Shown here: in pieces, positions 4,756 through 5,070 of the stretch
Numbering within the stretch: position 1 is the stretch's first letter
Layout of the letters: each line of letters begins with the position of its first letter
Assembly: GCA_946886325.1 (NCBI GenBank)
Contig: CAMPIK010000154.1
Span: 1 to 6,236 of the forward strand
Source: an uncultured Shinella sp.
GTDB taxonomy: Bacteria > Pseudomonadota > Alphaproteobacteria > Rhizobiales > Rhizobiaceae
DNA length: 6,236 bases
Direction: 5' to 3'
Translations under genes and position numbers: made by a program
Notes under the pieces: model-generated
Database searches by the model: none
What the model was told of the DNA's origin: nothing
What the model saw: only the letters and a program-made list of their open reading frames with translations

Positions 4756-4784
4756 TTGCCCTTTAGGCAGGTTGCAGATATAAG
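4756..4784 (+). promoter_or_regulatory. Predicted promoter of the leuA leader
   Basis: TTGCCC (4756-4761; CTTGCC in the alphaproteobacterial register, 5/6 to CTTGAC), 17 nt and TATAAG (4779-4784, 5/6 to TATAAT). This is the best promoter match in the window. The start of transcription would fall at about 4791-4792, on or next to the ATG of the leader peptide. Confidence 0.6.
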
Positions 4785-4791
4785 CCGGCTC

Positions 4792-4917
4792 ATGTTGAAG
4801 ACTGGCGCTCAGATCATCGATCGGGTTTCCCGCGGCGGATATGCCGTTCGGGAGCGTTCGCGCGCCATCACCTCGCTTCTTCTCCTCGGCCTTACACGCG
4901 GTTGCCGGGTTCTTTGA
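4792..4917 (+). CDS. Leucine-rich leader peptide of leuA
   Basis: This 41-codon frame starts at ATG 4792 and stops at TGA 4915-4917. Its end reads ITSLLLLGLTRGCRVL: four consecutive Leu codons (CTT CTT CTC CTC, 4876-4887), another at 4891 and one at 4912. The product would have no activity of its own. Translation speed at the Leu codons would report charged tRNA-Leu and decide how the RNA downstream folds. There is no Shine-Dalgarno, but the ATG lies at the expected transcription start, so leaderless initiation is likely. I believe the Sinorhizobium trp leader is read in a similar way (from memory). The peptide is longer than most attenuation leaders, and the start is the weakest part of the call. 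It could be a chance frame, but the Leu run and its position before leuA argue otherwise. Confidence 0.62.
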   Translation: MLKTGAQIIDRVSRGGYAVRERSRAITSLLLLGLTRGCRVL

Positions 4918-4962
4918 GGAGCGCCCGGCGGCCGAAAAGCCTCGCCGGCTAGAGCTCCTTTC
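4882..4962 (+). promoter_or_regulatory. leuA transcription attenuator with alternative stems
   Basis: Competing pairings are visible. Stem 1:2 pairs CTCCTC (4882-4887, Leu codons) with GAGGAG (4916-4921). Stem 2:3, the candidate antiterminator, pairs CGGTTGCCGGG (4899-4909) with CCCGGCGGCCG (4924-4934): 11 pairs, two of them G-T. Stem 3:4, the candidate terminator, pairs CCGGCG (4925-4930) with CGCCGG (4943-4948) and is extended by AGGAGC (4917-4922) with GCTCCT (4954-4959). Stems 2:3 and 3:4 share bases and exclude each other. A ribosome stalled on the Leu codons leaves 4899-4909 free and favours 2:3, hence read-through into leuA. The terminator is followed only by TTTC, a weak T-run, so termination efficiency or mechanism is uncertain. 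Confidence 0.6.
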
Positions 4963-5070
4963 ACAATCATTCAAGACCGATTTGGCCCCCTGGGGCAGCA
5001 TTTGCCGTCGCATGACTTCAAGCGATACGCTATGAGCGCGAGGCAGGTGCGGGACGAGGAAGAGACGACG

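Follow-up and report, generated by a model that had tools for sequence, protein, structure and literature searches.

Textbook accounts and genome-search tools generally treat attenuation as a hairpin followed by a U-tract. In the leu operon attenuator of E. coli and Salmonella (leuL), the leader peptide carries four leucine residues in a row before leuA, and a leucine leader from gamma-proteobacteria is among the Rfam leader families. An alphaproteobacterial leader upstream of ilvI was reportedly described by Vitreschak et al. in 2004. Full-text searches of the available literature found no report of a rhizobial leuA attenuator; since the same 2004 work may already list alphaproteobacterial leuA, the novelty claimed here is provisional. 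In the available excerpts of PMC7298713 and PMC10117765, the trpL leader ORF of S. meliloti is described as leaderless, while an excerpt of PMC1273637 mentions an ilvB leader peptide. No mention of leuA was found in the available parts of PMC10117765, PMC1273637 and PMC2573895.

The leuA leader studied here lies in a stretch of 6,236 nt from an uncultured Shinella sp. (hereafter the window). Like the alphaproteobacterial ilvI leader, which occurs in the same genomes, it encodes a branched-chain leader peptide ahead of a gene for biosynthesis; the hairpin of the ilvI leader, however, is followed by 6-7 consecutive T. It resembles E. coli/Salmonella leuL (cited in the part of PMC6123439 available) in the four-leucine leader before leuA, the competing stems and the putative leucine sensing, but differs in its 41-codon, probably leaderless ORF, its CTT/CTC codons, a stop codon abutting the second stem, the lack of a U-tract and the lack of an Rfam match. 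Like the S. meliloti trp attenuator rnTrpL/peTrpL (excerpts of PMC7298713 and PMC10117765), it combines a rhizobial leader peptide, encoded by a probably leaderless ORF, with alternative structures upstream of a biosynthetic gene; in the same genomes, a U-tract terminator closes the trp leaders but not the leuA leaders. Provisionally, ribosome-mediated sensing is the known part and a leucine attenuator without a U-tract the new one.

The leader ORF upstream of leuA

The window contains the following features around the start of leuA, whose product is nearest to Rhizobium relatives (92% in the LeuA comparison):

3795-4397: clpP-like gene, preceding leuA
4460-4750, minus strand: small ORF of 96 aa (MRMKLVQ...), its start divergent from the leuL promoter region
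4755-4784, plus strand: promoter-like hexamers CTTGCC/TTGCCC and TATAAG, 17 nt apart, with 7 nt between their end and the leader ATG
4792-4917, plus strand: leader ORF of 41 codons, here named leuL, read from the sequence; probably a leaderless mRNA start
4876-4893, plus strand: putative regulatory Leu codons CTT CTT CTC CTC (GGC) CTT, read directly
4899-4934, plus strand: stem A (4899-4909 with 4924-4934), proposed antiterminator or ON structure, from folds and alignment
4917-4959, plus strand: stem B, proposed OFF structure (outer part 4917-4922 with 4954-4959; inner part 4925-4948)
4960-4980, plus strand: single-stranded tail lacking a U-tract and poor in G (11-13% over its first 20 nt, 74 loci)
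4998-5050, plus strand: stem arms GCATTTGCC / GGCAGGTGC, immediately preceding the ribosome site of leuA
5056-5064, plus strand: Shine-Dalgarno-like GAGGAAGAG of leuA, predicted to pair with the Leu run
5071-6236, plus strand: leuA, 2-isopropylmalate synthase (NF002991, 678 bits), running off the window

The first-pass annotation of the window had noted four tandem Leu codons upstream of an 11-bp stem without giving the frame of the leader ORF, which the present analysis supplied (4792-4917). The codons are indeed there (CTT CTT CTC CTC, 4876-4887), and after an intervening GGC they are joined by a fifth Leu codon, CTT, at 4891-4893; ACA, the codons for RGCRVL and the stop TGA (4915-4917) follow. 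The ORF opens at ATG 4792, and its product is MLKTGAQIIDRVSRGGYAVRERSRAITSLLLLGLTRGCRVL. A short ORF rich in codons for the product amino acid thus stands upstream of the matching biosynthetic gene; among 2000 first-order Markov sequences of the region, an ATG-initiated small ORF so rich in leucine (at least five Leu in six codons) arose by chance in two. The leuL peptide is most similar to a hypothetical protein from Sinorhizobium sp. BG8, likewise of 41 aa (85% identical), and no known protein family was matched among NCBIfam or Pfam. leuL adds a leader peptide to the rhizobial small-protein map.

The choice of Leu codons is peculiar to the leader. Counted over the last 12 codons 5' of the stem, CTT makes up 57% of leader Leu codons (n=430) vs 2.5% in leuA (n=2039), and it stands two codon places 5' of the stem arm in 75 of 77 loci. 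Such an excess is expected of a sensor run, but could also arise if pyrimidines were required there for pairing with the leuA ribosome site.

As to the start of the transcript, promoter-like hexamers (CTTGC.. / TAT...) precede the leader ATG by 6-10 nt in 61 of 77 loci, the distance being 7-8 nt in 51; the same spacing is seen at 344 of 1540 random ATGs of these loci. The leader ATGs were, however, picked for the best hexamers, which biases the result towards this spacing. Because the hexamers lie so close to the ATG, a leaderless leuL mRNA, beginning at or near the AUG, is likely. Strict sigma-70 and terminator scans of window positions 4500-5300 returned nothing.

Alternative stems and their conservation

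Stem A was found where the first-pass annotation had placed its 11-bp stem, with all 11 positions paired in the window, two of them as G-U; its 5' arm sits in the last leuL codons, from the RGCRV part onwards. The second stem, said to compete with it before leuA, also holds, as an outer helix (4917-4922/4954-4959) and a broken inner part that rests on single-sequence folds. Its first base is the final A of the leuL stop codon. The two stems are mutually exclusive, positions 4924-4932 or thereabouts being common to both. In window folds, stem A alone has -26.4 and stem B alone -23.6 kcal/mol, and the means over 77 sequences are -25.2 and -26.2 kcal/mol, respectively. The segment with stem A is more stable than 199 of 200 shuffles (z -3.2), while 12 of 200 shuffles are as good as stem B alone (z -1.85). 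Whole-leader equilibrium folds hold both stems in part (A 0.39, outer B 0.59). The stability of the whole leader was discarded as evidence, being no better than that of shuffles (z -0.80; 48 of 200). A known Rfam leader element was likewise rejected: a search of the whole window with E up to 1 gave no match at the leader site, and the Rfam covariance models gave 0 matches among 10 leader loci at the gathering cut-off.

The main support for the element comes from its conservation, from which we judge that it is not due to chance. Eighty leuA loci were gathered, of which 79 were usable (L043 had no upstream DNA). A leader with a Leu run is present in 76 of the 79, a count that is not blind, as the leader pattern was written after a first look at the loci; L077, L078 and L080 did not match this pattern, and L077 has the short form of the class described below. 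Covariation was evaluated in an alignment (A1) of 62 of the 77 sequences, which omits 11 near-duplicates and four Aurantimonas/Aureimonas-type loci (L067, L068, L069 and L073) with long inserts within stem B. Stem A is paired in 682 of 682 alignment cells, whereas slid-partner controls give 20-51%, and three of its 11 pairs are changed on both sides, e.g. from G-C to A-U in 24 sequences. Outer stem B is paired in 97.8% of 366 cells, and two of its pairs are changed on both sides. It should be noted that its further pair types are not above shuffles (375 of 500) and that sliding it by +2 or +3 gives a covariation score similar to that of the true register, so that the case for stem B rests mainly on the paired cells and on nine double-change cells. 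Such a comparison of relatives, examining both the Leu codons and the pairing of the stems, had been named in the first-pass annotation as the test that could refute the attenuator; with 76 of 79 leaders and double changes in both stems, the attenuator withstood it. The leader thus contains a pair of structures that exclude each other and are maintained by compensatory changes, and, in combination with the Leu-rich ORF, this makes ribosome-mediated leucine sensing at leuA very likely.

A model of the element (R1) matches 144 of 151 family genomes, at least four of the 144 having contributed sequences to it; the seven negative genomes are assemblies of 1.1-2.8 Mb. A leuA motif is present in 26 of 27 fetched R1 loci. 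In two genomes, a second match lies before a diverged leuA copy and represents a diverged element (L191, 992-1100; L192, 1080-1178). In an order-level sample, R1 matched 19 of 297 genomes, one of them weakly (E 9e-4; locus L152, with no leuA motif), but this figure says little about diverged forms because at most 13 first-look candidates were scored per genome.

The proposed switch and its output

The first-pass annotation had voiced doubt about the short T-run (TTTC, 4959-4962) that forms the tail of stem B. This is not a local quirk: after the GCTCC of stem B, there are at most three T in the next 8 nt in 66 of 74 loci and at least five in four of 74, with an immediate run of at least four T in two of 74. 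In 23 genomes drawn from the leuA set, by comparison, the best trp-leader hairpin is followed by 6-7 T of 8 in 23 of 23, and the ilvI leader, located in 22 of the 23, has a run of at least six T in all 22 (7 T scored in 20; the sequences of L115 and L128 show a run of 7 T that escaped the scoring because of the energy cut-off). When all hairpins at -10 kcal/mol or lower, up to 110 nt from the leader stop, were admitted, the best T count in the leuA leaders of the 23 genomes and the window was 1-6 of 8, and at most three in 18 of 24, so that an intrinsic terminator elsewhere in the leader was rejected as well. The GC-rich hairpin followed by a U-tract that characterizes intrinsic terminators is therefore lacking at leuA, and as it is present in these genomes at both trp and ilvI, its absence is a property of the leuA leader and not of the hosts. 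Plain intrinsic termination is accordingly disfavoured, and the three leaders offer a natural comparison of output mechanisms within one cell. The first 20 nt after stem B contain 11-13% G, vs 20-24% after the T runs of ilvI and 28-39% after those of trp.

Taken as a whole, the element is with high probability a leucine-sensing switch, i.e. a leucine-responsive, ribosome-mediated attenuator of leuA. The proposal of ribosome-mediated attenuation in the first-pass annotation thus stands as regards the Leu leader and the exclusive stems, which show compensatory changes; at the output step plain intrinsic termination is disfavoured, there being no U-tract, in line with the doubt voiced there. Our best reading is that the leader belongs to ribosome-mediated attenuation by its mode of sensing and departs from textbook intrinsic termination in its output. 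Anatomy and conservation come from the present data, while stalling and the response to leucine are drawn by analogy with known attenuators. Transcription would start at or near the AUG of the 41-codon leaderless leuL. With charged leucine tRNA in short supply, the ribosome would stall on the CUU/CUC run, leaving the RGCRV codons free; stem A would form, stem B would be blocked and leuA would be on. With plentiful leucine, the ribosome would advance to the stop codon, which borders on stem B or reaches into its 5' arm. There it would cover the 5' arm of the other stem, A; stem B would then form behind it and turn leuA off. Since a ribosome in that position would hide the 5' arm of stem B as well, stem B would have to form during or after release. 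Two observations count against an attenuator, namely that no terminator of known kind was found and that the whole leader is not unusually stable.

For the output step, we tentatively favour premature, Rho-dependent termination at the untranslated G-poor stretch 3' of stem B as the likeliest of the readings considered, because stem B has no U-tract. Rho would fit both this lack and the G-poor untranslated tail; against it counts the length of the G-poor stretch, only about 20-25 nt, which is short for a Rho site. A leucine attenuator that does without a U-tract throughout a family would escape terminator-based scans.

A different output, which we consider rather unlikely, is translational attenuation. 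The pyrimidine-rich Leu run (CUUCUUCUCCUC) would act as an anti-Shine-Dalgarno sequence masking the purine-rich ribosome site of leuA, and a ribosome stalled on the Leu codons would unmask it, so that a shortage of leucine would permit translation of leuA; stems A and B would fold the RNA in between. The sign of regulation would be right, and there is a precedent for masking by a uORF in E. coli toiL-topAI, where, according to the available part of PMC12121999, the uORF pairs with the downstream ribosome site, a stalled ribosome unmasks it and Rho is involved. The point of likeness would be the pairing of uORF sequence with a downstream ribosome site; unlike the present leader, toiL-topAI senses antibiotics, not an amino acid, and has no A/B pair of this kind. 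When 77 leaders are folded at equilibrium, almost all pairing of the leuA ribosome site within the leader falls on the Leu run, with 6.3 expected pairs per locus (12.5 in the window), and this pairing drops to 2.6 when the Leu codons are redrawn from leuA usage. Shuffling the base order of the ribosome site, however, still leaves a mean of 4.8 pairs (12.8 in the window, where there is no fall), so composition explains most of the run/site pairing. Run/site duplexes are slightly more stable for cognate than for permuted partners (-14.75 vs -14.14, sd 0.26, 11 of 1000), and the Leu run forms a stronger duplex with the leuA site (-15.1) than with the trpE (-13.0) or ilvI (-11.6) sites. Pairing is strong in 48 of 77 loci, but below two pairs in 29, including Mesorhizobium and Aurantimonas relatives; these 'high' and 'low' groups were split on the pairing measure itself, and the related sequences in the counts are not independent. 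As a rival, masking would thus concern only part of the family, and it assigns no role to the mutual exclusion of stems A and B. Masking of the leuA site by region 4 of stem B was rejected (cognate -12.98 vs permuted -12.85, 315 of 1000), and its sign would be wrong.

Also improbable is intrinsic termination at stem B by a mechanism needing no U-tract. Stem B is GC-rich, conserved and terminator-like in position, with TTT in the window and at least five T in 8 at the four loci mentioned above, but the host RNA polymerase is served with U-tracts elsewhere, as the trp (23 of 23) and ilvI (22 of 22 located) leaders demonstrate. Finally, chance or coding-driven conservation, i.e. a small conserved protein gene with incidentally pairing codons, would account for the conserved C-terminal residues RGCRV / GDRRA of the leader peptide, but is very hard to reconcile with 3' stem arms that lie outside the leuL ORF and covary with it, with N-terminal parts that vary freely among loci and with the extreme CTT bias.

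Other alphaproteobacterial leaders and neighbouring genes

For the wider class, a set was assembled through LeuA from 80 further leuA upstream regions of Alphaproteobacteria outside the first set, plus L077. A short Leu-rich leader ORF is present in 56 of the 80 (a figure without random control); the search rule required a CTT whose next base is A or C, together with three or more Leu in nine codons, so the presence of CTT in these leaders is by construction. The context nCGACTTA, found just 5' of the hairpin in 36 of the 56 (L163-L246), goes beyond what the rule demanded. By a loose rule applied to single folds, the stop codon lies in the hairpin loop in 41 of 56, and promoter-like hexamers stand 6-10 nt 5' of the ATG in 41 of 53. 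The best T count near any hairpin is at most four in 50 of 56 and 5-6 in five, one leader having no hairpin. In an alignment (A3) of 21 of the 56 leaders, hand-picked for equal spacing, seven of nine pairs are changed on both sides, the covariation score is 0.39 against 0.16 for shuffles and 0.25 for the best slid register, and hairpins of at least 8 bp occur in 15 of 21 leaders vs 19% of shuffles.

To judge from their sequences, the class leaders look like a minimal form of the family's leuA device. A bolder suggestion, to which we give little weight, is that of an ancient alphaproteobacterial class of leuA leaders, consisting of a micro-ORF that is leaderless, rich in Leu and closes with ...Leu-(Arg/Gly)-Leu(CTT)-A, with its stop codon in a hairpin loop and no intrinsic terminator, the output being through Rho or through a Leu run that masks the leuA ribosome site. 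If this were true, one codon stretch would be leucine sensor and anti-Shine-Dalgarno sequence at once.

Some further observations were made around these leaders. Upstream of ilvI, 22 of 23 genomes (L111-L133) show a conserved leader peptide (e.g. MKNSIVLIVVGRRMGRMV) with a T6-7 terminator. The sequence of the 4998-5050 stem of the window (GCATTTGCC with GGCAGGTGC) is conserved among several Rhizobium-side loci only, and Mesorhizobium and Brucella loci apparently have stems of different sequence in its place. The 96-aa minus-strand ORF (4460-4750) had no match in Pfam or NCBIfam. Farther upstream, the window encodes a partial membrane protein (1-1161, plus strand) with a weak, below cut-off match to glutamine amidotransferases, a GNAT acetyltransferase (1175-1681, minus strand), a protein resembling glutathione S-transferase (1968-2954; Pfam GST_C_2, GST_N_2) and a membrane protein of the HupE/UreJ family (2974-3552, minus strand; Pfam PF04955).
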